The notes beneath the pieces are model-generated. The model had not been told where the DNA came from, searched no databases, and worked only from the letters and a program-made list of their open reading frames with translations. From Alphaproteobacteria bacterium (GTDB lineage Bacteria > Pseudomonadota > Alphaproteobacteria > Rhodobacterales > Rhodobacteraceae): a DNA stretch of 55,710 bases. A program made the translations under genes and the position numbers. Shown in pieces: positions 27,043 to 43,645 of this stretch (position 1 is its first letter; every line of letters begins with the position of its first letter). The DNA lies in contig JAUHWT010000024.1 in the NCBI GenBank assembly GCA_030427145.1, positions 1 through 55,710 of the forward strand, given 5' to 3'.

Positions 27043-27252
27043 TTCGCGGGGCCTGCGAACGCACACCCTGTCCCGACCATCACGGCCAGCCCTGCTTCTC
27101 GAAAACTGATGATAGTCGGTTTTGGCGCACGCCTGTTCGCAGGGCAAAGGGTCGCGGGCAAAGTTTCTGTTAGACCTGAGCCTGTCCGCGATGGGAGGAA
27201 AAATTGCGGGCGGCATAACCGAGACAGAAAATCCCGACAGGAAGAATGTGGA

Positions 27253-28920
27253 ATGTCCGACATAGAAATTGCCCGCAAGGCGAACAAGAAACCGATTCAG
27301 GAAATTGGTGCCACGCTCGGGATCGATGCGGAGCATCTGCTTCCCTTCGGTCATGACAAGGCCAAGATCTCGGAGACGTTCATCCGTTCTCTCGCCGACC
27401 GCAGGAACGGCCATCTGGTCCTCGTCACGGCAATCAACCCGACGCCGGCAGGGGAGGGCAAGACAACTACAACCGTAGGTTTGGGCGATGGTCTCAATGC
27501 GATTGGCAAGAAGACGGCGATCTGCATTCGTGAAGCCTCCCTTGGCCCCTGTTTCGGGATGAAGGGTGGTGCGGCTGGTGGCGGTTACGCCCAGGTCGTA
27601 CCGATGGAGGACATGAACCTCCACTTCACCGGGGACTTCCACGCCATCACCTCTGCGCACAACCTGCTCAGCGCCATGCTCGACAACCACATCTACTGGG
27701 GCAACGAGCAGGACATCGACATCCGCCGCATCGCGTTCCGTCGCGTGATGGACATGAACGACCGCGCCCTGCGCCAGATCGTCTGCAACCTCGGCGGCGT
27801 GGCCAATGGCTTCCCCCGGGAGGCGGGCTTCGACATCACCGTGGCGTCCGAGGTTATGGCGATCCTCTGCCTTGCCACGGATCTTGCTGATCTTGAACGG
27901 CGTCTTGGGGACATCATCGTGGCCTACCGTCGCGACCGTTCGCCGGTCTATGCGCGCGACATCAAGGCCGACGGTGCCATGACCGTGCTCCTGCAACAGG
28001 CCATGCAGCCCAACCTGGTGCAGACGCTGGAGAACAACCCGGCCTTCGTGCATGGCGGACCGTTTGCCAACATCGCTCACGGCTGCAACTCGGTCGTTGC
28101 CACCACCACGGCGCTGAAGCTGGCGGACTATGTGGTGACGGAGGCCGGTTTTGGCGCGGATCTGGGTGCGGAGAAATTTTTCGACATCAAGTGCCGTAAG
28201 GCCGGACTGGCCCCGGAAGCAGTTGTGATCGTCGCGACGGTGCGCGCGATGAAAATGAACGGGGGTGTTTCGAAGGATGATCTTGGGACCGAAAATGTCG
28301 AGGCGGTGCGCAAGGGCTGCGCGAATCTCGGGCGGCATATCGAAAACGTCAAACAGTTCGGCGTCCCGGCCATTGTCGCCATCAACCATTTCGTGACCGA
28401 CACCGACGCCGAAGTCGAGGCGATCAGGAAGTTTGTCAAAAGCCAGGGCTCTGAGGCCGTGCTCTGCAAACACTGGGCTGAAGGCTCGGCCGGGATCACG
28501 GACCTGGCCGAAAGGGTCGTCAAACTTGTTGAGGGCGGGGCCGCGCAATTCGCGCCGCTTTATGGTGACGACATGCCGCTGTTCGAGAAAATTGAAACCG
28601 TTGCCAAGCGGATTTACCGCGCTGATGAGGTGATCGCGGACAAGAAAATCCGGGATCAGCTGCGACAGTGGGAGGCGCAAGGTTACGGTAACCTGCCGGT
28701 CTGCATGGCAAAAACCCAGTATTCCTTCTCCACCGATCCCAATCTCCGCGGCGCGCCGGAGGGTCACAGCGTTCCCATCCGTGAGGTACGCCTTTCCGCC
28801 GGGGCGGGGTTCATCGTGGTGATCTGTGGTGAGATCATGACGATGCCCGGTTTGCCCCGGGTTCCATCTGCGGAAGCCATCCGGATCAATGAGGAAGGTC
28901 TAATCGACGGACTGTTCTAG
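27253..28920 (+). CDS. fhs: Formate-tetrahydrofolate ligase
   Basis: From ATG 27253 the protein has 555 residues, the family norm; the longer open frame to 27109 has no ribosome site. The FTHFS signatures are present: [20 protein letters not shown] is the ATP-binding P-loop, followed by [40 protein letters not shown] and [16 protein letters not shown]. The enzyme joins formate to tetrahydrofolate with ATP, giving 10-formyl-THF. With formate dehydrogenase next to it, the cell can either assimilate formate-level carbon or oxidise it. In Roseobacters this pathway takes C1 units from demethylation of DMSP and methylated amines. Confidence 0.97.
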
Positions 28921-28935
28921 GCGGAAAAGCCGCTG

Positions 28936-28958
28936 CCCGGCCCGCGGATGGGGCCGGG
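28936..28958 (+). terminator. GC-rich hairpin after fhs, possible attenuator
   Basis: CCCGGCCC (28936-28943) pairs with GGGCCGGG (28951-28958) around a seven-base loop, 16 bases after the fhs stop. No T-run follows, so it may only weaken or stabilise the transcript between fhs and fdsGB rather than end it. Confidence 0.45.
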
Positions 28959-28977
28959 TGGTCAACCTTCGGTTAAT

Positions 28978-28994
28978 GATAAGCCCAGCTTATC
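28978..28994. promoter_or_regulatory. LysR-type T-N11-A palindrome upstream of fdsGB
   Basis: GATAAGC (28978-28984) and GCTTATC (28988-28994) are perfect inverted repeats around CCA. The inner T at 28980 and A at 28992 are separated by eleven bases, the classical LysR-type box. It lies 95 bases before the fdsGB start and is the best candidate site for the LysR protein encoded at 26167-27042. Confidence 0.5.
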
Positions 28995-29088
28995 GTATCT
29001 GTTCCTTTTTTGATTTGATGATATGTTTTCCTGATGGCAATGGGTGAACAGTTAAAAACAGCCCGTCCGGGCCGGTGGAGAGAAACGT

Positions 29089-30780
29089 ATGGCGCCGTTG
29101 GATGATCGCCCGGGGGTTTGGAAATCGGGCAAAGGCAAGGGCCGCAGACAGCCCAAGGGCCGTCAGTATGACGATGCGGCACTTGAGGACGTACGCGACC
29201 TGCTCGGTGACCGTCCGCGCCGCCGCGACCTTCTCATCGAGTTTCTGCACCTGATCCAGGATCACCATGGTCACATCTCCGCCCGTCATTTGCGGGCACT
29301 GGCCGAGGAAATGCGTCTGGCCCAGGCGGAGGTCTATGAGGTCGCGACCTTCTACGCCCATTTCGACGTGGTGAAAGAGGACGAGGCGCCGCCGCCCGCG
29401 CTGACCATCCGGGTGTGTGACAGCCTGTCCTGCGAGATGGCAGGCTCACAGGCGCTCAGAGCCGCTCTGGAGAGCGGTATGGACCCCTCCGAGGTCCGGG
29501 TGCTGCGCGCGCCCTGTATGGGCCGCTGTGACACGGCTCCAGTGGCCGAGGTGGGACACAACCATGTGGATCACGCCACCCCGGAGAAAATCGCCTCTGC
29601 AATTGCCGCCGGCGAAACGCATGCCGTCATCCCGGATTACGAGGACCTCGCCGCATACCGCGAAGGTGGCGGTTATAAGGCGCTTGCGGATATCAGGTCA
29701 GGCAAACGCAGTGTGGAGAGTGTAATAGAGGATGTTCTCGCAAGCGGACTCCGCGGTCTGGGCGGGGCCGGGTTCCCGTCCGGCAAGAAATTCGACATCG
29801 TGCGCGCGGCTGAGGGTGAGAAGTATCTGGCCGTAAATGGCGACGAGGGCGAGCCTGGAACATTCAAGGACCGGTACTACCTTGAGCGCACCCCGCATTA
29901 CATGCTTGAGGGTATCCTGTTGGCCAGCTTCGGGGTCGGGGCCACGCGCTGTTACATCTACATGCGGGACGAGTATCCGGCGGTTCTGGAAATCCTGCGC
30001 CGGGAGATTGCGGCGCTGGAAGAGGCCGGGATTGCGGAGCCGGGATATGTCGAACTGCGCCGTGGGGCAGGGGCCTATATCTGCGGCGAGGAAAGCGCGA
30101 TGATCGAGAGCATCGAGGGCAAGCGTGGTCTGCCCCGGCATCGACCGCCTTTTGTGGCGCAGGTCGGTCTGTTTGGCCGTCCGACGCTGGTCCATAACGT
30201 TGAGACGCTGCACTGGATTGCCCGGATTACCCGTGAGGGGCCGGAGGTTTATGGCAGTCACGGGACCAATGACCGCAGGGGTCTGCGCAGTTACTCGATT
30301 TCGGGGCGTGTGGCGAAACCGGGTGTTTATGCGCTCCATGCGGGCTCCACCATCCTTGAACTGATCGAGGCCGCGGGCGGTATGGCGCCGGGACATGTGT
30401 TCAAGGCCTATCAGCCGGGAGGGCCGTCCTCGGGGCTATTGCCCGCGTCGATGGGGGATATTCCGCTCGATTTTGATACCCTGCAACCTCATGGTACATT
30501 CATTGGATCCGCGGCGGTTGTGGTTTTGTCGGATCAGGACCGGGCGCGGGATGCCGCGCTGAACATGCTGCGGTTTTTCGAGGACGAAAGCTGTGGACAG
30601 TGTACGCCGTGCCGGACGGGTTGCGAAAAGGCGGTGAAACTGATGCAGGCCGAAACCTGGGATCAGCCGTTGCTGGAAGACCTCTGTCAGGTGATGGGGG
30701 ACGCGTCCATCTGCGGTCTGGGGCAGGCCGCACCGAACCCCATCCGGCTTGTGATGAAACATTTCGGGGACGAGATATGA
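29089..30780 (+). CDS. NAD-dependent formate dehydrogenase, fused gamma-beta subunit
   Basis: The 563-residue protein fuses two normally separate subunits. Residues about 35-155 are the FdsG/NuoE-like part with [2Fe-2S] cysteines in CDSLSCEM and CMGRCDTAP. Residues about 195-563 are the FdsB/NuoF-like part with the NADH/FMN site ([34 protein letters not shown]), [20 protein letters not shown], and the [4Fe-4S] cysteines in [14 protein letters not shown]. Such fusion is known in the FDH1 type of Methylobacterium (Fdh1B). It takes electrons from the catalytic subunit and reduces NAD+. The stop overlaps the next gene by four bases. Confidence 0.95.
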
Positions 30781-31145
30781 GCGACCTTGGCGCTTTTTCC
30801 ATCAGCCTTGCGGTGAAGGATCTGAAGGCGTCAATCGCGTTCTATGAGAAGCTGGGCTTCGAGGCCGCCGGGGGTGGCGAGGGCTGGATGATGATGCGCA
30901 TGGGCGACAAGGTCATCGGTCTGTTCGAGGGCATGTTTGAAAAAAACATCATCACCTTCAATCCCGGCTGGACCCAAGGGGCTGAAAACCTTGAGGAATT
31001 CGCTGATGTCCGCGAGGTTCAGCAGAAGCTGAAAGCCAAGGGCCTGGAACTGGCATCCGAAGTGGAGGCGGGCACCAGTGGCCCCGCGTCCATTACCCTC
31101 GTCGACCCGGACGGCAACCCGATCCTGATAGATCAACACAGGTAG
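30777..31145 (+). CDS. VOC/glyoxalase-superfamily protein inside the formate dehydrogenase operon
   Basis: This 122-residue protein starts in an ATGA overlap with fdsGB. It has the two beta-alpha-beta-beta-beta halves of the vicinal oxygen chelate fold: [20 protein letters not shown] then GFEAAG, and a C-terminal [18 protein letters not shown]. Members include glyoxalases, dioxygenases and resistance proteins; the substrate cannot be read. Tight coupling to fdsGB suggests co-expression with formate dehydrogenase. The family is common, but its place between dehydrogenase subunit genes is unusual. Confidence 0.88.
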
Positions 31146-31153
31146 AAAAATTT

Positions 31154-31594
31154 ATGCGAGCTTTCATACTTTTGTTCCTAATTGCCGGTGTTCCGGTCCA
31201 TGCAGAAGAGTTGGCGCATTGTTATCTTGGAGACGCGCCGGAAGGTGCGCCCTTATCCTCTGATGACACAACTACAATGGATGGTTTTTACTCCGCATTT
31301 GATGTCGCGGCGGCCCGGTATGCGTGTGGACTATTGAGTGACACCGATCTTCGCGTTTTGGATGCCCAGCTGGAGGCTGGCGGCTGTTCTCCAGAATCTG
31401 AAATTGCTGCGTTTGCTGCTTCAACATGGGAAGAGGACGCGTCGGAATATCGGGCGGCGCTTGAGGAGATCATGGGCGGCGCAGACGTAACCGGGGAATT
31501 TTGTACTTCTCTCGAAATCTGTGAATCGAACGATGGCAAAGACTATTCGCCCGAGTGTTACGAAGTGTTCAATCTTATGATGGAGCAGGAATAG
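31154..31594 (+). CDS. Unknown exported cysteine-containing small protein between fdsGB and fdsA
   Basis: The 146-residue product begins with a likely signal peptide (MRAFILLFLIAGVPVHA, cleavage after about residue 17). The mature part is acidic and helical and has six cysteines (AHCYL, RYACG, GGCSP, EFCTS, EICES, PECYE), which suggests disulfides in the periplasm. I do not recognise a family; the pattern is loosely like small lysozyme-inhibitor-type periplasmic proteins. It starts nine bases after the VOC gene and ends three bases before fdsA. Base use is less GC-rich than in its neighbours, which hints at a separate origin. Confidence 0.7.
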   Translation: MRAFILLFLIAGVPVHAEELAHCYLGDAPEGAPLSSDDTTTMDGFYSAFDVAAARYACGLLSDTDLRVLDAQLEAGGCSPESEIAAFAASTWEEDASEYRAALEEIMGGADVTGEFCTSLEICESNDGKDYSPECYEVFNLMMEQE

Positions 31595-31597
31595 CTG

Positions 31598-34393
31598 ATG
31601 GCAGATGGTGCTCAGGTTCCGACCGTTACCTTCACGTTGAATGGTGAGGAAACCACTGTTCCCGAAGGCTGGACGATCTGGGAGGCGGCTCATGGGCGGG
31701 GGCTTGTTATTCCGCATCTGTGCCATAAACCCGAGCCGGGCTACCGCTCCGATGGCAACTGTCGCGCCTGCATGGTTGAGGTCGAGGGCGAGCGCACGCT
31801 GGTTGCGTCCTGCATCCGGCCGGTGGCCGAGGGCATGGTGGTTGAGACCGAAAGCGACCGGGCGAAAAAGTCGCGGGCTTTGGTGGTGGAACTGCTCGCT
31901 GCGGACCAGCCGGAGCGGGAAGCGGCTCATGACAAATCCTCGCATTTCTGGGACATGGCGGATGCGACGGGCGTGACGGAGAGCCGGTTTCCGAAGGTGG
32001 AGGCCGACCGGGTGCCGCTGCTTGATGACAGTCATGTGGCGATGCAGGTCAATCTGGATGCGTGTATCCAGTGCAACCTGTGTGTTCGGGCCTGTCGGGA
32101 GGTTCAGGTCAATGACGTGATCGGAATGGCCGAGCGCGGGCGGGATGCGAAGATCGTTTTCGACTTCGATGACCCGATGGGCGCGTCGTCCTGTGTGGCC
32201 TGTGGCGAATGCGTTCAGGCCTGTCCGACGGGGGCTCTGATGCCCGCGACGGTGGTGGATGAGAAACAGGTTGGCGACAGTGAGGACCATGACCGCGAGG
32301 TGAAGTCGGTCTGTCCTTTCTGTGGTGTGGGATGCCAGGTTTCGTTCAAAATCAAGGACAACAAGGTCAAATACGTTGACGGGATCAACGGCCCGGCGAA
32401 TGAAAACCGGCTCTGCGTTAAGGGGCGGTTCGGGTTTGACTACATTGACCATGCGCATCGTCTGACCACACCACTGATCCGCCGTGAGGATGCGCCGGCC
32501 AAGGGTTTGAATGTCGATCCCGCCAATCCCTGGACGCATTTCAGGGAAGCGACATGGGAGGAGGCGCTGGACAGGGCCGCGGGCGGTCTGGCCGAATTGC
32601 GGGACGTGCACGGCGGTAAATCGGTGGCCGGGTTTGGGTCGGCCAAGTGTTCCAATGAGGAAGCCTATCTGTTCCAGAAGCTGATCCGGCAGGCGTTCCG
32701 GCACAACAACGTGGACCACTGCACCCGGCTTTGCCATGCGTCATCCGTGGCGGCGCTGATGGAAAATGTCGGGTCCGGAGCAGTGACGGCGACATTCAAT
32801 GAGATTGAAAACGCCGATATTGCCATCGTGATCGGGTCAAACCCGACCGAGAACCATCCGGTGGCCGCGACCTATTTCAAGCAGTTCGCCAAGCGGGGCG
32901 GCAAGCTCGTTGTGATGGACCCGCGGGGGCAGGGGCTTCGGCGGCATGCGACGCATATGCTGCAGTTTCGACCGGGGGCGGATGTTGCAATGTTGAACGC
33001 GATCATGAACGTGATCGTGGAGGAAAACCTCTATGATCGGCAGTATATCGACGGGTTCACGGAGGGTTTTGACGCGTTCCGTGAGCACATAAAGGACTTC
33101 CCGCCCGAGAAGATGGCGGAGCTGTGCGGGATCGATGCCGAGACGCTGCGCACGGTGGCGCGGGAGTTTGCGACGGCGCAGCGCGGCATGATTTTCTGGG
33201 GCATGGGCGTGAGCCAGCACATCCACGGTACGGACAACTCCCGCTGTCTGATTTCGCTTGCGCTGCTCTGTGGACATGTGGGGCGGCCGGGGACTGGGCT
33301 GCATCCGCTGCGCGGGCAGAACAATGTGCAGGGAGCCTCGGATGCGGGGCTTATCCCCATGTTTTTGCCGGATTATCAGTCCGTGAAGGACGGCGGCAAA
33401 CGCGACCTGTTTAAGGAGATCTGGCAGGGGACCGAGATCGAGGCGGAGCCTGGTCTGACCGTGGTTGAGATCGTGGACGCGATGTATCGTGGTGACGTCA
33501 AGGGCATGTATATCCTGGGTGAAAACCCGGCCATGTCGGACCCGGATGTGGAACATGCCCGCGATGCGCTGGGGCGTCTGGAGCATCTGGTGGTACAGGA
33601 CATCTTCCTGACGGAAACCGCGAATTTTGCCGATGTCATTCTGCCCGCGACGGCCTGGCCCGAGAAGACCGGGACGGTGACGAACACCAACCGTCAGGTG
33701 CAGATGGGCCGCAAGGCGGTGGATGCGCCGGGTGAGGCGCGTCCCGATTGGGAGATCACGGTGGAGCTTGCCAAACGGCTGGGGCTCGGCTGGGAGTACG
33801 CTGCGCCGCGTGAGGTGTTTGAGGAGATGAAGCTGTCCATGCGGTCGCTTGAAAACATCACCTGGGACCGGCTGGAGAATGAGGATGCTGTGACCTATCC
33901 GAGCCTGTCGGAGACTGATCCGGGTCAGGCGGTGGTGTTTGGTGATGGCTTCCCGCGAGCGGATGGACGGGCGAAGTTCACGGCTGCGAAGGTGTCGCCG
34001 CCGGCGGAACTGCCGGATGAGGTCTATCCGTTTATCCTGATCACCGGGCGGCAGCTCGAGCACTGGCATACGGGATCGATGACACGGCGGTCGAAAATCC
34101 TCGACGGGATCGAGCCGGAAGCGAGCGCGTCGCTGCATCCGCGTACCCTGCGGGAGATGGGTGTGGAGCCGGGGGACATGATCGAAATTACCACCCGGCG
34201 CGGCACAATTTCCATCATGGCGCGGGCGGACCGGGCGGTGGCGGAGCGCATGGTGTTTGTGCCGTTTGCCTATGTGGAGGCGTCAGCAAATGTCCTGACA
34301 AATCCGCAGCTTGACCCCTATGGCAAGATTCCTGAGTTCAAGTTCTCCGCCTGTCGGGTTGAGGTTCCGGGCGGGGCGATGGCGGCGGAGTAG
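31598..34393 (+). CDS. NAD-dependent formate dehydrogenase, catalytic alpha subunit
   Basis: The 931-residue protein has an N-terminal ferredoxin-like [2Fe-2S] domain (PHLCHKPEPGYRSDGNCRAC), a His/Cys [4Fe-4S] region, two [4Fe-4S] motifs (CIQCNLCVRACREV and CVACGECVQACPTGAL) and the molybdopterin-oxidoreductase part. The latter opens with CPFCGVGCQVSF and carries the putative metal-binding Cys in NNVDHCTRLCHASS, so cysteine rather than selenocysteine is used. It is of FdsA/Fdh1A type and would hold Mo or W bis-MGD. It oxidises formate to CO2. No fdsC/fdhD-like sulfurtransferase or fdsD gene follows, unlike the usual fdsGBACD operons. Confidence 0.95.
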   Translation: MADGAQVPTVTFTLNGEETTVPEGWTIWEAAHGRGLVIPHLCHKPEPGYRSDGNCRACMVEVEGERTLVASCIRPVAEGMVVETESDRAKKSRALVVELLAADQPEREAAHDKSSHFWDMADATGVTESRFPKVEADRVPLLDDSHVAMQVNLDACIQCNLCVRACREVQVNDVIGMAERGRDAKIVFDFDDPMGASSCVACGECVQACPTGALMPATVVDEKQVGDSEDHDREVKSVCPFCGVGCQVSFKIKDNKVKYVDGINGPANENRLCVKGRFGFDYIDHAHRLTTPLIRREDAPAKGLNVDPANPWTHFREATWEEALDRAAGGLAELRDVHGGKSVAGFGSAKCSNEEAYLFQKLIRQAFRHNNVDHCTRLCHASSVAALMENVGSGAVTATFNEIENADIAIVIGSNPTENHPVAATYFKQFAKRGGKLVVMDPRGQGLRRHATHMLQFRPGADVAMLNAIMNVIVEENLYDRQYIDGFTEGFDAFREHIKDFPPEKMAELCGIDAETLRTVAREFATAQRGMIFWGMGVSQHIHGTDNSRCLISLALLCGHVGRPGTGLHPLRGQNNVQGASDAGLIPMFLPDYQSVKDGGKRDLFKEIWQGTEIEAEPGLTVVEIVDAMYRGDVKGMYILGENPAMSDPDVEHARDALGRLEHLVVQDIFLTETANFADVILPATAWPEKTGTVTNTNRQVQMGRKAVDAPGEARPDWEITVELAKRLGLGWEYAAPREVFEEMKLSMRSLENITWDRLENEDAVTYPSLSETDPGQAVVFGDGFPRADGRAKFTAAKVSPPAELPDEVYPFILITGRQLEHWHTGSMTRRSKILDGIEPEASASLHPRTLREMGVEPGDMIEITTRRGTISIMARADRAVAERMVFVPFAYVEASANVLTNPQLDPYGKIPEFKFSACRVEVPGGAMAAE

Positions 34394-35078: not shown

Positions 35079-35909
35079 ATGGAAACTCTCTACTCACCGG
35101 GATTTTTGGCGCTGTTGGCGGCCGGGCTTGTACTGACCGGGGCGATTGCCGGGGTATTGGCGGGACTTTTGGGTGTTGGCGGTGGCATTGTCATCGTGCC
35201 CGTGCTGTTTTGGCTGTTCGATTACCTCAATGTGCCGGATGTGGTGGCCATGCATGTGGCCGTGGGCACGTCCCTTGCCACGATCATTCCGACCTCGATC
35301 TCCTCCGCGCGCTCCCATGAGAAAAAGGGCAACATTGACCGGAAGGTCCTGATGACCTGGGCGCCGTGGATTTTTGCCGGTGCGCTGGTGGGTGGAATTT
35401 TGTCGAAATTCCTGTCCTCGGCATATCTGACGGGGATTTTCGGGGTGATTGCGCTTCTGGTTTCCATCAATATGGTTCTGCCGAAAGCCATTGTTATTGC
35501 TAAGGAATTGCCGACGAATCCGGCTGGGCGCAGTGCGTTGCCGTCGTTCATTGGGCTCTTTTCCTCATTGATGGGAATTGGTGGCGGGACGCTGTCGGTG
35601 CCGACGCTGACGGCGTTCTCGTATCCCGTTCACAAGGCGGTTGGCACTGCGGCGGCGTTTGGGCTGGTGATTGCGGTGCCGGCGGCGATCGGGTTTGTCT
35701 GGTCAGGCTGGAGCGTGGATCTGCGGCCGCCGTACTCGCTGGGGTATATCAGCGTTCCGGCGGCGGTTCTGATCTTCTCGGCCAGTGTTTTCACGGCCCC
35801 GGTGGGCGCGCGGATTGCGCATAGTTTGAACCCGGCGCGGCTTCGGTTGGCGTTCGCGGTGTTTCTGTTTTTGAGCAGTTTGAAGATGTTCAATTCGGCG
35901 TTTTTTTAA
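35079..35909 (+). CDS. TauE/SafE-family membrane exporter, candidate sulfite exporter
   Basis: From ATG 35079 the product has 276 residues and about eight hydrophobic segments; an open frame to 34950 has no good start. The two family repeats are clear: GVLAGLLGVGGGIVIVPVLF near the start and SSLMGIGGGTLSVPTLTAFS in the second half. TauE/SafE proteins are thought to export sulfite, sulfoacetate and similar anions. The gene is convergent with the Gfo/Idh/MocA gene of a putative sulfonate-degradation locus, where a sulfite exporter is expected. Assignment of sulfite as substrate rests on that context. Confidence 0.88.
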   Translation: METLYSPGFLALLAAGLVLTGAIAGVLAGLLGVGGGIVIVPVLFWLFDYLNVPDVVAMHVAVGTSLATIIPTSISSARSHEKKGNIDRKVLMTWAPWIFAGALVGGILSKFLSSAYLTGIFGVIALLVSINMVLPKAIVIAKELPTNPAGRSALPSFIGLFSSLMGIGGGTLSVPTLTAFSYPVHKAVGTAAAFGLVIAVPAAIGFVWSGWSVDLRPPYSLGYISVPAAVLIFSASVFTAPVGARIAHSLNPARLRLAFAVFLFLSSLKMFNSAFF

Positions 35910-35934
35910 GGGGCGCGACCGGTTGAACCTTCCC

Positions 35935-35983
35935 GCCCGGCGGCACCGCCGGGCAGCGCCGACCGCCCCCCATGGGCGGCGCT
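35935..35983. terminator. Twin hairpins between convergent genes
   Basis: GCCCGGCGG (35935-35943) pairs with CCGCCGGGC (35946-35954). Immediately after, CCGCCC (35963-35968) pairs with GGGCGG (35974-35979), extended by AGCG/CGCT across a small bulge. The pair lies between the tauE-like gene and the minus-strand Gfo/Idh/MocA gene and probably ends both transcripts. Confidence 0.55.
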
Positions 35984-36032
35984 TTGCTTCCGCCCGCGGC
36001 CGTCGCTGCCCTCCGGGTCAGGGTTTTACGTT

Positions 36033-37142
36033 TCAGCTGAACAACGGGATCTGAACGGCCTGGTGGGTCTGCGCGGAATGCTGCGCGGCGATGCCGAATT
36101 CCACGGCGCGCCAGCCGTCCTCCAGGCTGACCTCCGGCGCGCGGATTTCGCCGCGTACCAGGGCCAGAAAATTCCGGTGCTGGTAGAAGGTCGAGCCGTT
36201 ATGATCGCCCGCGTCGAGCAGTTCGGGGTCCACGGGGATCGCCTCGCTGACCGGACGTTTGGGGTTGCGCGGAGAAATGCGCAGCATGGGCAGGGGCGGT
36301 TCGCCCAGATCGTCGGGCCAGAAGCGGGTGGGGCCGGGGACGAAGGCCTCGATGCGCCCGTCCGGTCCGGTGGCCGACAGTTCCTCCTGGTATTTTGACC
36401 CTTCCGCAAACATGCACAACTCCAGCATGGCGCGTGCGCCGTTCGCGAAATCCGCGATTACATAGCCGTTGTCGAGGACGTCGGGAATGTGACCGTCATG
36501 GACCTCATCGAGATGGTTCACGTCCTGCCCCGCGCTCGCCATGACGCGGACGGGTTCGGATCCGAGGGTCAGGCGCATGAGGTCGAAGAAGTGGCAGCAC
36601 TTCTCCACGAAGGTTCCCCCCGTATTGAGGTTGAAGCGGTTCCAGTTGTCGACCTTGTTGAGGAAGGGGAACCGGTGCTCGCGGATGGTCAGCATTTTGA
36701 TGCCGCCGGTTACGGTTTCGGCCCGTTTGAGGAAGGCGGCAATGGGTGGCATGTAGCGGTATTCCATGCCGACCCAGATATGCGCGGGATAGGTCTGCGC
36801 CAGGGCGCGGATGGCGGAGAGGTTTTCCTCGCCGGTAAAGAGCGGCTTTTCCACCAGCAGGGGCAGGGGGCGGGTCCGTTCGATTTCCAGAAGCTGGTCG
36901 CAGTGGAAATGATTGGGGCTCGCGATCACCAGGCAGTCCAGATCGGGCAGGGCCAACAGCTCGGCCAAGGTGCCTGGGAAGACGGCGTCAGGCGCGAGGG
37001 GTTTGGCCCGGTCGCGCATTTCGGCGTTTGGCTCGAGGATCGCGGCGATTTGGGTATCGGGCAGAAGGTTGATGTTTTTGATGTGCTCCCTGCCCATCAT
37101 GCCACAACCGATCAGGCCGTAGCGGATAGTTTTTTTTGTCAT
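36033..37142 (-). CDS. Gfo/Idh/MocA-family NAD(P)-dependent protein, candidate sulfoquinovosidase or sugar dehydrogenase
   Basis: The 369-residue protein has the N-terminal Rossmann motif (RYGLIGCGMMGREHIKNINL), the dinucleotide-binding VEKP motif (LPLLVEKPLF) and the C-terminal alpha/beta domain. The catalytic-region motif reads GGTFVEKCCHFFDLMRL rather than the common GG...D.GxHxxDL form. Most relatives are sugar or inositol dehydrogenases. Some branches of this fold (GH109, GH188) use bound NAD+ to hydrolyse glycosides, and GH188 enzymes are NAD-dependent sulfoquinovosidases found beside sulfoquinovose genes. It is probably in one operon with the GntR gene, divergent from the SsuD-like trio. 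Which activity it has needs comparison with GH188 sequences. Confidence 0.8.
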   Translation of the reverse strand: MTKKTIRYGLIGCGMMGREHIKNINLLPDTQIAAILEPNAEMRDRAKPLAPDAVFPGTLAELLALPDLDCLVIASPNHFHCDQLLEIERTRPLPLLVEKPLFTGEENLSAIRALAQTYPAHIWVGMEYRYMPPIAAFLKRAETVTGGIKMLTIREHRFPFLNKVDNWNRFNLNTGGTFVEKCCHFFDLMRLTLGSEPVRVMASAGQDVNHLDEVHDGHIPDVLDNGYVIADFANGARAMLELCMFAEGSKYQEELSATGPDGRIEAFVPGPTRFWPDDLGEPPLPMLRISPRNPKRPVSEAIPVDPELLDAGDHNGSTFYQHRNFLALVRGEIRAPEVSLEDGWRAVEFGIAAQHSAQTHQAVQIPLFS

Positions 37143-37152
37143 TGCAGTACCG

Positions 37153-37851
37153 TTATTTGAGACGCTGTACGTAGAGGGCGCGGGCGGTGTCGAACCAGGT
37201 TTGCGAGAACTCGACCGGGTGTTCCGGCTCGGACCAGCTTAACCGCGTGATGTAGCCGCATGTGGTGCCGGGGGGGAGGCTGAAGCCCGGCGGCGCCCAG
37301 GCGGGCACGGTGCCGATGCCGACACGGTCCTCCGCGCGGGCGATCCAGAAACCGAGCCGGCTTTGATAGGTGTGGTAGAGCGAATCCGAGATGGTCTCGC
37401 GGGTGAGTTCGCCCATGTCGGCATCGAGCCAGATCTCCTCGACCGCGATCGGGGTCCGGTCCAGAAACCGCAGGCGCCGGATGCGGGTGCCGCGGTGTGA
37501 GGTGCCGAATGTGGGCAGGTCACCGGGCTTGTCGAGGGTATCGACCGAGAGGATTTCCGCCGTGGGCAGGCCGCCGCCCGCGTGGAGTTCGAGGCGGAAC
37601 ATGGAATAGATGCTGCCGGTGTTTTCGGCATGGCGGATGTAGTTGCCCGATCCCTGCCGCCGTTCCAGGAGGCCGCGTTCGGTGAGCTCGGCAAGCGCCT
37701 TTCGCAGGGTGCCGACCGAGGCGCCAAGCTGTCGGGCGAGGTCCCGTTCGGGGGGCAGGCGTTCCCCGTCCAGCAGCCGTCCCGCCCCGATGTCCCGGAT
37801 GAGACGTTCGCTCAGCTCGATATATTTCGGGAGCGTGTTGGGCGGGTTCAT
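37153..37851 (-). CDS. GntR/HutC-family transcriptional regulator
   Basis: This 232-residue protein has an N-terminal GntR winged helix-turn-helix (IGAGRLLDGERLPPERDLAR; LGASVGTLRKALAELTERGL) and a C-terminal UTRA-type effector domain (RIRRLRFLDRTPIAVEEIWL; VEFSQTWFDTARALYVQRLK). It starts 92 bases from the divergent flavin monooxygenase gene, and an inverted repeat TTGATA/TATCAA lies between. It is ten bases from the Gfo/Idh/MocA gene downstream and probably co-transcribed with it. It likely senses the substrate of the monooxygenase pathway. Confidence 0.92.
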   Translation of the reverse strand: MNPPNTLPKYIELSERLIRDIGAGRLLDGERLPPERDLARQLGASVGTLRKALAELTERGLLERRQGSGNYIRHAENTGSIYSMFRLELHAGGGLPTAEILSVDTLDKPGDLPTFGTSHRGTRIRRLRFLDRTPIAVEEIWLDADMGELTRETISDSLYHTYQSRLGFWIARAEDRVGIGTVPAWAPPGFSLPPGTTCGYITRLSWSEPEHPVEFSQTWFDTARALYVQRLK

Positions 37852-37868
37852 CTGCGCTGCCTAAAAAA

Positions 37869-37893
37869 TTGATACATCATTGATCTATATCAA
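37869..37893. promoter_or_regulatory. Candidate GntR operator in the divergent promoter
   Basis: TTGATA (37869-37874) and TATCAA (37888-37893) form an inverted repeat with a 13-base spacer that itself contains ATCATTGAT. It lies 18 bases before the GntR start and 50 bases before the monooxygenase start, in the only intergenic space that could hold both promoters. The A/T-rich sequence contrasts with the GC-rich surroundings. Confidence 0.5.
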
Positions 37894-37942
37894 GGCGGGT
37901 GTTACGAAAAGGGAAAAGCAACCTTCCGCGGAGAAATTTCCG

Positions 37943-39097
37943 ATGACTGTCGTACCCGTAACATCGCCCGATCTGGACGCGGCCGAGGTGTCCTGGTTCT
38001 CGGCGCTGTGTTCCGATGACTACCGGTATCTTGGCGTTCCCGACGGGGATCTCCGTTCCAGCTGGGCGCACTGTTCGGATATCGTGAAGACCGCCGAGAC
38101 CCAGGGGTTTCGCAATATTCTGTGCCCGTCCTCCTATCAGGTGGGGCAGGACACCCTGAGCTTTGTGGCCGGGTGTGCGCCGATCACCGACAGGATCAAC
38201 CTTCTGGCTGCGGTGCGCTGTGGGGAGATGCAGCCGATCATGCTGGCGCGGACGGTGGCCACGCTCGACCACATGCTGGAGGGTCGGCTGACGGTGAACA
38301 TCATCAGTTCCGATTTCCCCGGCGAGAAGGCGGAGAGCGGATACCGGTATCAGCGCTCGCGCGAGGTTGTGGAGATTTTGAAGCAGGCCTGGACGCGGGA
38401 CGAGTTTGACCACCAGGGCGAGATCTACAACTTCACCGGGCTGACCACCGATCCGGCGCGGCCGTATCAGACGGGCGGTCCGCTGCTCTATTTCGGAGGG
38501 TATTCCCCGGCGGCGCTGGACCTCTGCGGCGAGCACTGTGACGTTTACCTGATGTGGCCGGAGAAGAAAGAGGATCTGGCCGGGCGGATGAAGGCGGTGC
38601 ATGAGCGGGCCGAAGGGTATGGCCGGACGCTGGATTACGGCCTGCGGGTGCATGTGATCGTGCGCGATACCGAGGCCGAGGCGCGGGAATATGCCGATGA
38701 CATCGTCTCGAAACTCGACGACGAGTACGGCCGCAAGATCCGGGAGAGGGCGCTTGATTCCACCTCGCTCGGCGTGTCGCACCAGTCGAAGAACCGCGAT
38801 GTGGCCGATGAGTTTGGCTATATCGAGCCACATCTGTGGACTGGTGTGGGCCGGGCGCGGTCGGGCTGTGGCGCGGCGATTGTCGGATCGGCGGACCAGG
38901 TTCTGTCCGAGATTGAGGAATATCAGAAGATGGGCATTCGCGCGTTCATTTTTTCCGGCTATCCCCATAAGGAGGAGGCGGAGCATTTTGGCCGTCTGGT
39001 CATGCCGCATCTGAAAACATGTTCGCTGCCGGAAGCCTATGGTCGCAAGCCGGCATCGACACCGGCAACACCGCTTGGCGTGGGGGCAAGGGTTTAA
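37943..39097 (+). CDS. SsuD-like FMNH2-dependent sulfonate monooxygenase, candidate SmoC
   Basis: From ATG 37943, preceded by GGAG at 37930, the product has 384 residues. It is a bacterial-luciferase-like (LLM) flavin monooxygenase of the alkanesulfonate class: GLRVHVIVRDTEAEAREYAD corresponds to the Arg/His pair of SsuD (Arg226, His228), EPHLWTGVGRARSGCGAAIV contains the Arg near SsuD Arg297, and FIFSGYPHKEEAEHFGRLVM is the C-terminal family block. The SsuD active-site Cys region differs (ILCPSSYQVGQD). NIISSDFPGEKAES is a distinctive loop. Coupled aldo/keto reductase and flavin reductase genes follow, as in the sulfoquinovose monooxygenase (SmoC) pathway. The exact sulfonate is inferred. 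Confidence 0.85.
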   Translation: MTVVPVTSPDLDAAEVSWFSALCSDDYRYLGVPDGDLRSSWAHCSDIVKTAETQGFRNILCPSSYQVGQDTLSFVAGCAPITDRINLLAAVRCGEMQPIMLARTVATLDHMLEGRLTVNIISSDFPGEKAESGYRYQRSREVVEILKQAWTRDEFDHQGEIYNFTGLTTDPARPYQTGGPLLYFGGYSPAALDLCGEHCDVYLMWPEKKEDLAGRMKAVHERAEGYGRTLDYGLRVHVIVRDTEAEAREYADDIVSKLDDEYGRKIRERALDSTSLGVSHQSKNRDVADEFGYIEPHLWTGVGRARSGCGAAIVGSADQVLSEIEEYQKMGIRAFIFSGYPHKEEAEHFGRLVMPHLKTCSLPEAYGRKPASTPATPLGVGARV

Positions 39098-39991
39098 ATG
39101 GAACGTGTAAGTCTCTCAAAAGACATTGAATTCAGCCGCATTGTTTATGGTCTCTGGCGGCTGGGAGACGATCCGGATCATTCGGTGGGTCATGTTCAGG
39201 CGAAGCTCGAAAGCTGCCTTGAGCAGGGCATTACCACCTTCGATCAGGCTGATATCTATGGAGATTATGCCTCTGAGGAGATCCTGGGCAATACGCTGAA
39301 AGCCGCGCCGGAACTGCGCGACCGGATGGAGATTGTCACCAAATGCGACATCATGCTTCTGTCCGACCGGCGGCCGGGAACGCGGGTGAAGCATTACGAT
39401 ACGTCAGCGGATCATATTCGCACATCCGTCGATAACTCACTGAAAAACATGGGCATTGACGTGATTGACGTTCTGCTGATCCATCGGCCGGATCCGTTGA
39501 TGGACCATGTGGAAACCGGTGGCGTGCTGGATGAGTTGATCGCGGCGGGCAAGATTCGTGGCGCCGGTGTGTCGAATTTCCGGCCATGGGAGTCTGAGCT
39601 GCTTCAGTCGGGGATGAAAAATCTGCTTATTACCAATCAGTTGGAGATCAGTCTTGCGGCGCGGGACAGCCTTTCGAATGGTGATCTCGCATGGTTGCAG
39701 CGTCATGGCATTCGGCCGATGGCGTGGTCACCGCTGGGAGGCGGGTCGCTGATGACTGAAACCGGCACGCCGCTTGCGGGTATTCTCGATACGGTTGCGG
39801 AGCGGAATGGCGTGGACCGCGCGGCGGTGGCGGTTGCGTGGCTTCTGGCGCATCCTTCTGGAATCATTCCGGTTTTGGGAACGAACAACCTTGAGCGCAT
39901 TGGGGTGATGTCGAAGGCGATGGATGTGGACATGGATCGTCAGACCTGGTTTGAAATTCTTGAGGCCGCCTGCGGCCATGAGGTGGCATGA
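39098..39991 (+). CDS. Aldo/keto reductase, candidate SmoB
   Basis: The 297-residue protein starts directly at the base after the monooxygenase stop. The AKR tetrad is visible: Asp and Tyr in TTFDQADIYGDYASEE, Lys in MEIVTKCDIM and His in VLLIHRPDPLMDH. GVSNFRPWE and WSPLGGGSL are the strand and cofactor-loop motifs of the YdhF-like AKR group. In the SMO pathway, SmoB is an NADPH-dependent AKR that reduces 6-oxo-glucose to glucose after desulfonation. The same order and coupling here support that role, but an unrelated aldehyde substrate is possible. Confidence 0.85.
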   Translation: MERVSLSKDIEFSRIVYGLWRLGDDPDHSVGHVQAKLESCLEQGITTFDQADIYGDYASEEILGNTLKAAPELRDRMEIVTKCDIMLLSDRRPGTRVKHYDTSADHIRTSVDNSLKNMGIDVIDVLLIHRPDPLMDHVETGGVLDELIAAGKIRGAGVSNFRPWESELLQSGMKNLLITNQLEISLAARDSLSNGDLAWLQRHGIRPMAWSPLGGGSLMTETGTPLAGILDTVAERNGVDRAAVAVAWLLAHPSGIIPVLGTNNLERIGVMSKAMDVDMDRQTWFEILEAACGHEVA

Positions 39992-40614
39992 TGGCGGATG
40001 GTGGCGAAATGGGTGCGTTTCGGGACATCCGTCCGGGACCGGAGAACACGCGGGAATTCCGGGAAGCGCTGGGGCGATTTTCCACGGGAGTGACTGTGGT
40101 TACGACGCAGACCTCAACCGGTCCCATAGGCATTACGGTCAACAGTTTTTCGAGTGTTTCGCTCGATCCGCCGCTGATCATGTGGTGCGTGGCGAAATCC
40201 TCGGGGCGGTATCCGGCGTTTGAGGCGGCGGAACGGTTCGCAGTGCATGTTCTGGGGCATGAACACCGGGACATTGCGGCGGGTTTTGCGAAGTCCGCGA
40301 CGGCCTTTGAGCACCTCGAACTGGCACAAACCGGTCGCGATTTGGCGCAATCGAGCAGTGATTTGGCACAGTCGTGCAGCGAAGTGGCACAGATTGAGAG
40401 TCAAATGGCACAGATTGCTGGGGAAACGGGTGAAAATGTGTCCGCGCCGGCACTTTTTGATGACTGTCTCGCACGGTTTGAGTGTACGGTTGCACAGAAA
40501 CACGATGCGGGAGATCATCAGATTATCGTGGGTCGTGTGGACCAGGCGGCGTTGCGGGAAGGTGATGCCCTGGTGTTTTGCATGGGTCGGTTCGGACGGT
40601 TTCTCGACGCCTGA
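39988..40614 (+). CDS. NAD(P)H:FMN reductase with an inserted tandem-repeat helix, candidate SmoA
   Basis: This 208-residue protein starts with the ATG that overlaps the aldo/keto reductase stop. The flavin-reductase fold is evident: LGRFSTGVTVVTTQTSTGPI then GITVNSFSSVSLDPPLIMWC, and LARFECTVAQKHDAGDHQII then VGRV near the end. It would supply FMNH2 to the SsuD-like monooxygenase. The usual length is about 165 residues. The extra about 35 residues (roughly 110-147) are five imperfect copies of a seven-residue unit (LAQxxxD), encoded by 21-bp tandem repeats at 40321-40425, inserted where relatives have a short loop. The insertion keeps frame and leaves the conserved blocks on both sides. Confidence 0.88.
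   Translation: MMADGGEMGAFRDIRPGPENTREFREALGRFSTGVTVVTTQTSTGPIGITVNSFSSVSLDPPLIMWCVAKSSGRYPAFEAAERFAVHVLGHEHRDIAAGFAKSATAFEHLELAQTGRDLAQSSSDLAQSCSEVAQIESQMAQIAGETGENVSAPALFDDCLARFECTVAQKHDAGDHQIIVGRVDQAALREGDALVFCMGRFGRFLDA
40321..40425 (+). repeat. Five 21-bp tandem repeats inside the flavin reductase gene
   Basis: Units begin at 40321, 40342, 40363, 40384 and 40405. Each opens with (C/T/G/A)TGGC(A/G)CA and codes for (L/V/M)AQ plus four variable residues. The first two units are followed by GAT, the third by GAA and the fourth by CAA. The seven-residue period is that of a coiled coil or amphipathic helix. Divergence between units shows the array is not brand new. Confidence 0.85.
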
Positions 40615-40673
40615 ACGGATGGCTGAAAAGTGATCCGGGGAAACCGGGCACGGGATTAAGGGGAGGTTCCTGA

Positions 40674-41264
40674 ATGGGGCCATTGTTTGCGGTTGTGAAA
40701 CCGCTTGGTCTGGTGAACGAGACGGTGTTCCGGATTGCGCGGGGCATCGGGGTAGTTGCCGTGGCGCTGATGGTCCTGGTTATCCTGATTCAGGTGTTCT
40801 TTCGCTATGTACTGAACAATGCCCTGCCGTGGCCGGATGAGGCGGCGCGGTTCTGCATGCTGTGGATGACGGGGCTGATGGCGCCGACGGCTTTGCGGCG
40901 GGGCGGGTTCGTGGCGATCGACATGGCGGTGCGGGCGTTGCCGCGGCGGATGGGGGAGGTTCTGTCGCTGCTGCTGCTCATTCTGAGCCTGTCTGTTCTG
41001 GTGATGGCGGTTCAGATCGGCTGGAGCGAGGTCACGGGGTTTGGCGGGAAGTTCAAATCCGGTTCGCTTTTTATTCCCTCCGACCTGACCTTCACGGCCT
41101 GGGAGAAAATGCCCAAGAGCTGGATGATGGCGTCTTTGCTGGTGGGGATCGTGATGATGATCTCGGCCAATGTTGAGCTGATTATCCGCAGCGTGATTTC
41201 GCTGATGGGTGGTGGTGACGGGCTGAAACCCATTCCGGGTGCGGCGTCGATTGGAGCCGAATGA
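40674..41264 (+). CDS. dctQ: TRAP transporter small membrane subunit (DctQ)
   Basis: The 196-residue protein has four hydrophobic helices, and the family signature is in VFFRYVLNNALPWPDEAARF with CMLWMTGLMAPTALRRGGFV. ATG 40674 is preceded by GGGGAGG. It overlaps dctM by four bases. DctQ and DctM form the membrane part of the tripartite ATP-independent periplasmic importer, driven by sodium or proton gradients. It begins 59 bases after the flavin reductase, so it is probably in the same operon. Confidence 0.93.
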   Translation: MGPLFAVVKPLGLVNETVFRIARGIGVVAVALMVLVILIQVFFRYVLNNALPWPDEAARFCMLWMTGLMAPTALRRGGFVAIDMAVRALPRRMGEVLSLLLLILSLSVLVMAVQIGWSEVTGFGGKFKSGSLFIPSDLTFTAWEKMPKSWMMASLLVGIVMMISANVELIIRSVISLMGGGDGLKPIPGAASIGAE

Positions 41265-42553
41265 TGCTGATCTGGTTTCTGCCGCTGTTTCTCGTCTTTC
41301 TCATGGTCGGTCTGCCGGTGTTTTTCGCACTGATCGCGGCGCCGGGGATCCTGCTTTTGCTCAATGGGCAGGAGAAGGACCTGACGCTGCTTTACCGTAA
41401 TGTTTACAACGGTATGGACAGCTTTCCTCTCATGGCGATTCCGTTCTTCATGCTGGCCGGTGAGCTGATGAACCGGGGTGGAATTACCATGCGGCTGGTC
41501 GAGTTCAGCCAGGCGCTGATGGGGCATCTGCGCGGGGGACTGGCGCATGTGAACATCCTGTCCTCCATGCTGTTTGCCGGGCTGTCGGGGTCGGCGGTGG
41601 CGGATACATCGGCCCTGGGCTCCATGCTGATCCCGGCGATGGAGAAGCAGGGCTATACGCGGAGGTTCGCGGCGGCGATTACGGCGGCAAGCTCGGTGAT
41701 CGGGCCGATCATTCCGCCCTCGGGCATCATGATTATTTACGCCTATGTCATGGGCGAGAGTGTCGCCGCTCTGTTCCTGGCGGGGATTGTGCCGGGTGTT
41801 CTGGTTGGTGTCGGCCTGATGCTGATGGTGAAGCTGATGGCGAACCGGTACGATTTTCCGGTGGCCTCGCGGCGCTATACCTGGCCGGAACGGGGGCAGG
41901 CGAGCCTGCGGGCGTTTTTCCCGCTGATGACGCCCGTGATTATTCTGGGCGGTATTTTGGCCGGGGTGTTTACGCCCACGGAGGCCGCATCGGTGGCGGT
42001 GGCCTATGCGCTGATCGTCGGGTTTTTCGTGCTGAGGACGCTGAAGGTCTCGGACCTGCCGGACATTCTGGGCAAGGCGGGGCTGACCTCGGCGGTGGTG
42101 CTGCTGCTCGTGGGGGCGGCGATGGCGTTCAAGACGGTTGTGAGCCTGTCGCACGCGCCGGAGATCATGGCGGAGTTTGTCTTAGGTCTGTCCAGCAACC
42201 CGCTGATTCTGCTGTTTTTGATCAACATGCTGCTGTTCGTGGTGGGCATGTTCCTCGATGCGGGGCCGGCGATTATCATTTTGGGTCCAATCCTCGGTCC
42301 GATCTTTGTTGACCTGGGTGTGGACCCGATCCATTTTGCCATCATCATGAGTGTCAACCTGACGGTTGGTCTGGCGACACCTCCGATGGGGCTGGTGCTG
42401 TTTGTGGCCTCATCGGTGTCGGGAGAGAGGGTGGAATCCATTTCCCGTGCCGTGCTGCCATTCCTGGCCGTGGAGATCCTGGTGATTTTCCTGATCACCT
42501 ATTTTCCGGCCATTTCCATGACGATCCCGCAACTGACCGGGTTTGCGAACTGA
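41261..42553 (+). CDS. dctM: TRAP transporter large permease (DctM)
   Basis: This 430-residue protein has about twelve to thirteen hydrophobic segments. Typical DctM blocks are NVYNGMDSFPLMAIPFFMLA, GLSGSAVADTSALGSMLIPA, and SSVIGPIIPPSGIMIIYAYV, with VNLTVGLATPPMGLVLFVAS late in the sequence. These are the family's substrate and ion path motifs. The start overlaps dctQ, and dctP follows after 27 bases. It carries out sodium- or proton-coupled uptake of an organic anion delivered by DctP. Confidence 0.95.
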   Translation: MMLIWFLPLFLVFLMVGLPVFFALIAAPGILLLLNGQEKDLTLLYRNVYNGMDSFPLMAIPFFMLAGELMNRGGITMRLVEFSQALMGHLRGGLAHVNILSSMLFAGLSGSAVADTSALGSMLIPAMEKQGYTRRFAAAITAASSVIGPIIPPSGIMIIYAYVMGESVAALFLAGIVPGVLVGVGLMLMVKLMANRYDFPVASRRYTWPERGQASLRAFFPLMTPVIILGGILAGVFTPTEAASVAVAYALIVGFFVLRTLKVSDLPDILGKAGLTSAVVLLLVGAAMAFKTVVSLSHAPEIMAEFVLGLSSNPLILLFLINMLLFVVGMFLDAGPAIIILGPILGPIFVDLGVDPIHFAIIMSVNLTVGLATPPMGLVLFVASSVSGERVESISRAVLPFLAVEILVIFLITYFPAISMTIPQLTGFAN

Positions 42554-42580
42554 AACGAGACTGAACCGGGAGGACTTACG

Positions 42581-43645
42581 TTGTTCAGAACCACACTAAA
42601 ATCACTGACGGTGGCGGCCATGCTGGCTGGAACCGCAATTGGCGCCGCCGCGCAGGATTTCACCCTGCGCGCCACGGCGAATTCCAATGAGAATGACGAG
42701 GATTATGACGGCCTCGTCGTGTTCAAAAACTACGTCGAACAGGCGTCGAACGGAGCCATCGAGGTTGAGCTGTTCATCGGGACGCAGCTTTGCTCCAACG
42801 GTGCGGAGTGCCTTCAGGGCGTGGCCGAGAGCCAGATCGACATCTTCATCTCGACCTCCGGTGGCGCTTCGGGGATTTTCCCGTTTGTTCAGGTGCTTGA
42901 CCTGCCATACCTCATGGCGGATGACCGCATTGCCGAAACCGTCATGGCCAATGGCAGCCCGTTTGTGACCACCATGCAGGACATGGTGACGGAGGCCTCC
43001 GGCGGGGCGATCCGGCTGATGACCATTGGCAATACCGGCGGCTGGCGCAACTTTGCCAATACCCAGCGTCGGGTGCAGACCCCGGCCGATCTGGAGGGTC
43101 TGAAGATCCGGACCGTTGTGGCCGATCTGCCGCAGGAACTGGTCAAGGCGCTTGGCGCTTCGCCCACGCCGATCCCGTGGCCGGAGCTGTTCACGTCGTT
43201 CCAGACCGGTGTGGTTGAGGGTTCCAAAAACGGTATCACCGACATCATGGGCATGAAATTCCCCGATGCCGGTCTGCAGTATGTGACGCTTGACGGTCAC
43301 GCCTATATGGGCGCGCTGTGGTTCATGTCGAACGAGACCTTCATGTCCATGCCCGAGGATCTGCGCCGGGTTGTGGTCGACGGGTTCTATCAGCTTCAGC
43401 AGGCCACCTTCGCCTCGCCGAAACGCAAGTCGATCCAGGCCTATGAGGATTTTGTTGAGGGCGGGGGCGATCTCTACGTGCCGACGCCTGAGGAAAAGGA
43501 AGCCTTCAAGGAAGCCGCCGGGCCGGTTTACGACTGGTTCAAGGCCAATGTTGATGGTGGCGAGCAGATCTTCGATGCGCTGAACACGGCTGTTGCCGAG
43601 GCCGAGGAAGAGGTCAACGCGGTCCGCGACCGTGAGGTGAACTGA
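42581..43645 (+). CDS. dctP: TRAP transporter substrate-binding protein (DctP)
   Basis: The 354-residue protein starts at TTG 42581 with GGGAGG upstream. A signal peptide is clear (LKSLTVAAMLAGTAIGAAAQ, cleavage after about residue 24). The TRAP binding-protein pattern follows: a DxxxF-like first strand, GTQLCSNGAECLQGVAESQI, and DLEGLKIRTVVADLPQELVK, where the Arg in KIRT normally forms the salt bridge to the ligand carboxylate. A sulfonate could occupy the same site. It is last in the operon and is followed by a terminator. The described SMO system uses an ABC importer, so a TRAP importer here would be a replacement. Confidence 0.94.
   Translation: MFRTTLKSLTVAAMLAGTAIGAAAQDFTLRATANSNENDEDYDGLVVFKNYVEQASNGAIEVELFIGTQLCSNGAECLQGVAESQIDIFISTSGGASGIFPFVQVLDLPYLMADDRIAETVMANGSPFVTTMQDMVTEASGGAIRLMTIGNTGGWRNFANTQRRVQTPADLEGLKIRTVVADLPQELVKALGASPTPIPWPELFTSFQTGVVEGSKNGITDIMGMKFPDAGLQYVTLDGHAYMGALWFMSNETFMSMPEDLRRVVVDGFYQLQQATFASPKRKSIQAYEDFVEGGGDLYVPTPEEKEAFKEAAGPVYDWFKANVDGGEQIFDALNTAVAEAEEEVNAVRDREVN

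Follow-up and report, generated by a model that had tools for sequence, protein, structure and literature searches.

In the sulfo-SMO (sulfo-ASMO) pathway of Agrobacterium and Novosphingobium, sulfoquinovose (SQ) is degraded by the trio SmoA, SmoB and SmoC, which in the Agrobacterium smo operon presumably lie beside an ATP-binding cassette (ABC) importer and a GH31 sulfoquinovosidase. We analyzed a stretch of 55,710 nucleotides (the window; contig JAUHWT010000024.1, assembly GCA_030427145.1) from a Rhodobacteraceae bacterium and found an intact SQ locus at positions 36033-43645 that carries the same trio, with the predicted chemistry in the same order. It differs from the Agrobacterium operon in having a GH188 enzyme for GH31, a tripartite ATP-independent periplasmic (TRAP) transporter, DctPQM, for the ABC importer, a GntR/UTRA regulator, and an adjoining TauE-family gene. 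From gene identity, gene order, residues, co-occurrence and repeat conservation, all observed directly, we infer that this is very likely a GntR-controlled SQ utilization operon with TRAP import, the glycosidase SqgA and SmoABC, a reading that also covers the enzyme activities, what the TRAP transporter carries, where the sulfite goes and how the locus is regulated. Sulfo-SMO clusters with a near-universal GH188 were described in marine Roseobacter by Kaur et al. 2023 (PMC10755693), with the same enzymes and apparently in the same clade. The chemistry and the GH188 partner are thus already published, and the pathway is not new. The importer goes undiscussed in the available part of that article; what the present analysis adds is the TRAP transporter, together with its use in a probable second pathway.

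The monooxygenase and its reductase partner were compared with solved chains. SmoC is identical at 301 of 383 positions (78.6%) to 7oh2 and at 303 of 383 (79.1%) to 7olf, compared with 122 of 337 (36.2%) to MsuD (7jv3), and SmoB shares 178 of 297 residues (59.9%) with 7bby. We take 7oh2 and 7olf to be the SmoC, and 7bby the SmoB, of the Agrobacterium study; their PDB titles are generic (alkanesulfonate monooxygenase, methanesulfonate sulfonatase, aryl-alcohol dehydrogenase). According to PMC13372026, co-location of SmoB and SmoC homologues marks a sulfo-SMO locus, and here the two genes are adjacent, with a flavin reductase gene, smoA, overlapping smoB. These scores and identities support SMO-type chemistry at the locus, as had been proposed in a sequence-only reading of this DNA.

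That reading also listed a Gfo/Idh/MocA protein and, separately, the possibility of a different glycosidase. Both proved to be one gene: the protein is present, its label has to be amended, and the GH188 glycosidase already lies within the locus. Using phmmer, SqgA matches 8zn9 (2.5e-162) and, over nearly their full length, 8qc2 (1.2e-104) and 8qc3 (4.1e-102), the GH188 NAD+-dependent sulfoquinovosidases FlSqgA/ArSqgA (PMC10755693). That article gives K107, Y136, E189, H193 and H321 as SQ contacts of ArSqgA and R166, L170 and K172 as its sulfonate contacts. All eight are kept in the alignment with SqgA (K99, Y128, E180, H184 and H314; R157, L161 and K163) when a construct offset of 13 is applied; Glu163 of the paper cannot be placed with that offset and was excluded. 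By these matches and residues, the protein is identified as a GH188 NAD+-dependent sulfoquinovosidase. A GH31 sulfoquinovosidase elsewhere was sought as well, and the genome (97.7% complete) has zero PF01055 matches; with dctQMP in place of an ABC importer, the locus falls outside the Agrobacterium-type sub-type. Because GH188 needs NAD+, SqgA would have to act in the cytoplasm, and therefore the importer should bring the glycoside in whole.

The gene block recurs widely in relatives. The 80 best SmoC matches (named loci; at least 80 exist, and the sample is not random) come mostly from Roseobacter, Ruegeria, Tateyamaria, Roseibium and kin, which suggests that the DNA of the window is from this group too. 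A span of 6.5 kb around SmoC contains GntR in 80, SmoB in 80, SqgA in 78, SmoA in 76, DctQ in 64, DctM in 63 and DctP in 61 cases, and one locus (L080) is without DctM solely through the contig end there. The recurrence of DctM so close to SmoC in 63 of 80 relatives places the block far beyond chance. In a sample of 394 genomes of the family, with cut-offs of 1e-120 for SmoC, 1e-100 for SqgA and 1e-80 for DctP, the three are present in 164, 189 and 144 genomes, and 159 of the 164 SmoC genomes also carry SqgA; the genomes are related, so such counts are not independent events. SmoC reaches E 1e-120 in two of 11 genomes of the organism's own genus, its own genome counted. Among 72,556 plasmid records, 28 match SmoC at 1e-100, 11 of them with at least 75% identity, and the full block lies on plasmids of Ruegeria sp. 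TM1040 and Rhizobium sp. SL42. Class-wide, SmoC is found in eight of 337 genomes (four of them already in the family sample) and DctP is present in all eight; the four outside the family comprise two with both genes within about 5 kb on one contig and two with them on different contigs. Four further genomes of the 337 have DctP without SmoC.

In a few loci the monooxygenase gene is missing or matches only in pieces. L128 (genome G050, 100% complete) and L129 (G368, 77% complete) keep SmoB, SmoA, SqgA and TRAP without SmoC, and no SmoC match at 1e-20 is present anywhere in these two genomes; the loci may be relics or may use another C-S cleaving enzyme. L134 (G225) is complete except that its SmoC match comes in two separate parts.

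The distribution of DctP bears on what the transporter carries. In the family sample, 109 genomes have both SmoC and DctP, 55 SmoC only, 35 DctP only and 195 neither. SqgA is found in 29 of the 35 DctP-only genomes vs one of the 195 with neither (Fisher 8.5e-30, overstated since the genomes are related). We examined 20 hand-picked neighborhoods of the 35. An SqgA-like protein is encoded in 18 of them, and the PfkB kinase, SQ-isomerase-like and LacD-type aldolase families are represented in 15, 14 and 12, respectively. Family identities were read from a single representative, L123, which matches the sulfoquinovose isomerase model NF048012 (8.8e-75), PF00294, PF01791, an aldose epimerase and an aldehyde dehydrogenase. 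From these matches, the loci with the isomerase-like family read as a hybrid sulfo-Embden-Meyerhof-Parnas (sulfo-EMP) pathway distinct from SMO: they have the same TRAP transporter (DctP 73-82% identical in 13 loci) and a GH188-like protein, whereas the C-C instead of the C-S bond would be broken and the regulator is of the DeoR type. In the DctP tree, SMO and sulfo-EMP contexts are intermixed, and three label changes are the minimum compatible with the starred branches, although the bootstrap had not settled. L120 and L121, whose DctP is just 48% identical, form the outgroup; both are labelled 'relic' in the tree although L120 carries the isomerase family and SqgA. Because the SMO and sulfo-EMP pathways share their incoming substrate, the TRAP transporter most likely imports SQ or sulfoquinovosyl glycerol. 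We consider it fairly probable that one TRAP transporter, the first for a hexose sulfonate, and an NAD+-dependent sulfoquinovosidase form a portable front end common to two chemically unrelated back ends, SMO with its oxygen-dependent C-S cleavage and hybrid sulfo-EMP with C-C cleavage, and that the back end behind it changed several times within the family.

Transporter swapping points the same way. Of the 55 family loci with SmoC and without DctP, 40 were fetched, and an ABC binding protein of one of two families is present in 19; in 10 loci it follows SmoC at a distance of no more than 4 kb. On the Marinovum plasmid pMaD9, an annotated ABC sugar importer follows the SMO genes. Together with the co-occurrence above, this exchange of ABC for TRAP supports the TRAP import proposed in the sequence-only reading. 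In the literature searched, an incomplete survey, we found no paper naming a TRAP importer for SQ, and an earlier report may exist.

Other genes were seen behind the SMO genes or behind dctP. In L156 (11980-13329), and also in L140, L146 and L153, a second type of binding protein replaces TRAP behind the SMO genes; it has no Pfam match, its PDB matches are ABC sugar-binding proteins, and at three of the loci it is followed by another conserved open reading frame (ORF), about 517 aa long. In many relatives, dctP is followed by a Sel1/tetratricopeptide-repeat protein and a MauG-type cytochrome c peroxidase (L028:15599-17368, L036:15886-17793, L182:15843-17072), a pair also found in sulfo-EMP loci (L117:11627-13444). 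The peroxidase ORF family occurs in 51 of the 80 named loci; in the window, neither a Sel1 nor a peroxidase gene was seen to follow dctP directly. The notion that this long ORF is antisense noise was rejected, given its Pfam match to the MauG-type cytochrome c peroxidase domain and the Sel1 protein on the other strand.

At 37869-37887, the gap between gntR and smoC carries TTGATACATCATTGATCTA, which has two TTGAT half-sites at a spacing of 11 bp. The motif, derived from the 80 named loci themselves, has a single match in the window, with 0 mismatches, where 0.04 are expected. It is present upstream of SmoC in all 80 loci (70 exact, six with one mismatch and four with two) and, allowing up to three mismatches, in 33 of 38 further loci (40 minus two copies of named ones, L156 = L049 and L166 = L081). 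The named loci, 1.55 Mb in all, hold three other matches at that tolerance, and the organism's own genome has the exact window site plus one match with three mismatches. Where gntR-sqgA lies apart from smoCB in L139, both units have the repeat. Of 13 sulfo-EMP loci, 12 lack the smoC repeat and the other has one match with three mismatches. The GntR protein probably binds this candidate operator. In L130 (G152), gntR-sqgA is directly divergent from dctQMP, with a three-mismatch repeat between them and no SMO enzymes.

A number of observations weigh against the SQ operon reading as a whole or in part. This DctP is missing from 55 of the 164 SmoC genomes of the family, and six of the 35 genomes with DctP and without SmoC lack SqgA. 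Neither ABC family is present in 21 of the 40 fetched loci, so a linked importer is not universal. Among the 50 fold matches listed for DctP, which are 19-26% identical, there is no close solved relative. On the sulfo-EMP side, the SQ-isomerase match of L123 scores 252 bits, under the curated cut-off of 700, and SqgA is only 44-53% identical. L157 has gntR-sqgA split off from smoC and carries the repeat on the smoC side only. Finally, none of the 80 named relatives has TauE at a distance of up to 6.5 kb from SmoC, and three have it anywhere in the fetched flanks.

The last count concerns the fate of sulfite. It is a serious possibility, if not the one we favor, that TauE is a chance neighbor rather than the sulfite exporter and that sulfite is assimilated or oxidized. 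In addition to the absence of TauE near SmoC in relatives, an exporter of the PF03601 type lies behind dctP in some of them, an annotated putative sulfate exporter follows dctP in TM1040 and SL42, and sulfite dehydrogenase detoxification was reportedly proposed for Roseobacter by Liu in 2023. Yet no Mo-co_dimer (SorA/SoxC-type) protein was found in the organism's own genome, in a search whose control family matched only two of 14 genomes and in which SoeABC was not searched for, and the local exporters in other loci fit replacement rather than chance. The proposal of TauE as a sulfite exporter, made in the sequence-only reading, keeps its family assignment (PF01925) and loses conservation with the locus; TauE as part of a conserved module was rejected on the count of zero in 80. 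Export through TauE is plausible and would be the likelier route.

A less probable alternative, and one we regard as unlikely, accepts that the SMO enzymes act on SQ but gives the TRAP transporter another cargo, with operon history explaining its position; this cargo could be a carboxylate or one of the C2/C3 sulfonates, for instance 2,3-dihydroxypropanesulfonate (DHPS) or isethionate. TRAP binding proteins mostly take carboxylates, and some SMO loci have another or no linked importer. The transporter itself is of the DctP type, with Q, M and P subunits and the binding-site arginine conserved in this class (Arg177). Arg177 and Arg156 of DctP, which presumably correspond to Arg147 and Arg127 of SiaP, are invariant in 37 aligned relatives, which fits an anionic ligand and does not name it. 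The AlphaFold2 model (mean predicted local distance difference test score 82.4) matches the fold of TRAP binding proteins including the sialate protein SiaP and the isethionate protein IseP; such a model and fold search give the protein class only, and the ligand cannot be read from the structure. IseP (PDB 8t9t/8te9), likewise a TRAP binding protein for a sulfonate and among the nearest folds, is only 21-22% identical to DctP and serves a C2 rather than a hexose sulfonate. The alternative is opposed by the retention of sulfoquinovosidase with this DctP in genomes without SmoC, by the place of this DctP in a probable different SQ pathway, and by the ABC sugar importers that occupy the place of TRAP in some SMO loci.

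That the monooxygenase serves other alkanesulfonates in SsuD/MsuD-like sulfur scavenging, and that the locus has nothing to do with SQ, is very unlikely and was rejected: the luciferase-like monooxygenase (LLM) fold, the match to the alkanesulfonate monooxygenase equivalog TIGR03565 (E 5.3e-74) and the resemblance to MsuD would allow it, but the score of 249.3 bits lies far below the cut-off of 518.2, identity is far higher to the SMO-type chains, and SmoB (80 of 80 named loci) and GH188 (78 of 80, and SqgA in nearly all SmoC genomes of the family) would not be expected for scavenging.

Under the SQ operon reading, DctPQM would use an ion gradient to import SQ or, more likely, intact sulfoquinovosyl glycerol. 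SqgA would free SQ in the cytoplasm through transient oxidation at C3. SmoA would supply reduced flavin, with which SmoC would use O2 to cleave the C-S bond of SQ, giving sulfite and 6-oxo-glucose, and SmoB would reduce 6-oxo-glucose to glucose. Sulfite would probably leave through TauE. GntR, probably seated on the repeat, would repress the two divergent units and be released by a sugar ligand.

All nine genes at window positions 35079-43645 are intact, and the gene set, order and zero-gap or overlapping junctions given in the sequence-only reading were confirmed, at or very near its coordinates. From its ATG at 37943, smoC runs into smoB with a gap of 0; smoB-smoA and dctQ-dctM each overlap by 4 bp, and the remaining gaps measure 59 bp (smoA-dctQ), 27 bp (dctM-dctP), 10 bp (sqgA-gntR) and 91 bp (gntR-smoC). 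The convergent tauE and sqgA are 123 bp apart. SmoA has 208 aa here vs 167-175 aa in eight aligned relatives; its insertion is built from heptad repeats, and the DNA shows 2.5 copies of a 21-bp repeat at 40339-40391. Five displayed relatives are without the insertion. Upstream, at 27109-34393, genes for a formate-tetrahydrofolate ligase and for NuoEF-like and molybdopterin formate-dehydrogenase-like proteins appear to have no connection with the SQ locus.

Table 1 Features of the SQ locus and the adjoining tauE, in window coordinates.
Feature	Position	Strand	Basis
tauE, TauE/SafE-family permease, candidate sulfite exporter	35079..35909	+	Pfam PF01925 9.1e-54
sqgA, predicted GH188 NAD+-dependent sulfoquinovosidase, Gfo/Idh/MocA fold	36033..37142	-	phmmer to 8zn9, 8qc2, 8qc3; residues
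gntR, GntR/HutC-type regulator (GntR helix-turn-helix + UTRA domain)	37153..37851	-	PF00392, PF07702
candidate operator, direct repeat with 11-bp period, gntR-smoC divergent region	37869..37887	+	motif search and conservation
smoC, predicted FMNH2-dependent sulfoquinovose monooxygenase, LLM class	37943..39097	+	identity to 7oh2, 7olf
smoB, aldo/keto reductase, 6-oxo-glucose reductase by analogy	39098..39991	+	59.9% to 7bby; PF00248
smoA, flavin reductase with 35-residue heptad-repeat insertion	39988..40614	+	PF01613 1.5e-37
dctQ, small TRAP permease	40674..41264	+	PF04290 4.9e-24
dctM, large TRAP permease	41261..42553	+	PF06808 2.5e-118; TIGR00786 above cut-off
dctP, TRAP solute-binding protein, likely ligand SQ or sulfoquinovosyl glycerol	42581..43645	+	PF03480 2e-51; co-occurrence

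SQ is produced at about 10 billion tons a year, according to PMC10755693, and its uptake by marine bacteria bears on the sulfur cycle. In two RefSeq-annotated records, the genes of this block are named only LLM oxidoreductase, Gfo/Idh/MocA and TRAP, and such generic names make SQ users easy to miss. What deserves testing is the proposed sharing of a TRAP front end. If the TRAP transporter is the importer, the locus predicts that a TRAP binding protein takes a hexose sulfonate, and DctP would be a gene marker of SQ uptake for two pathways.

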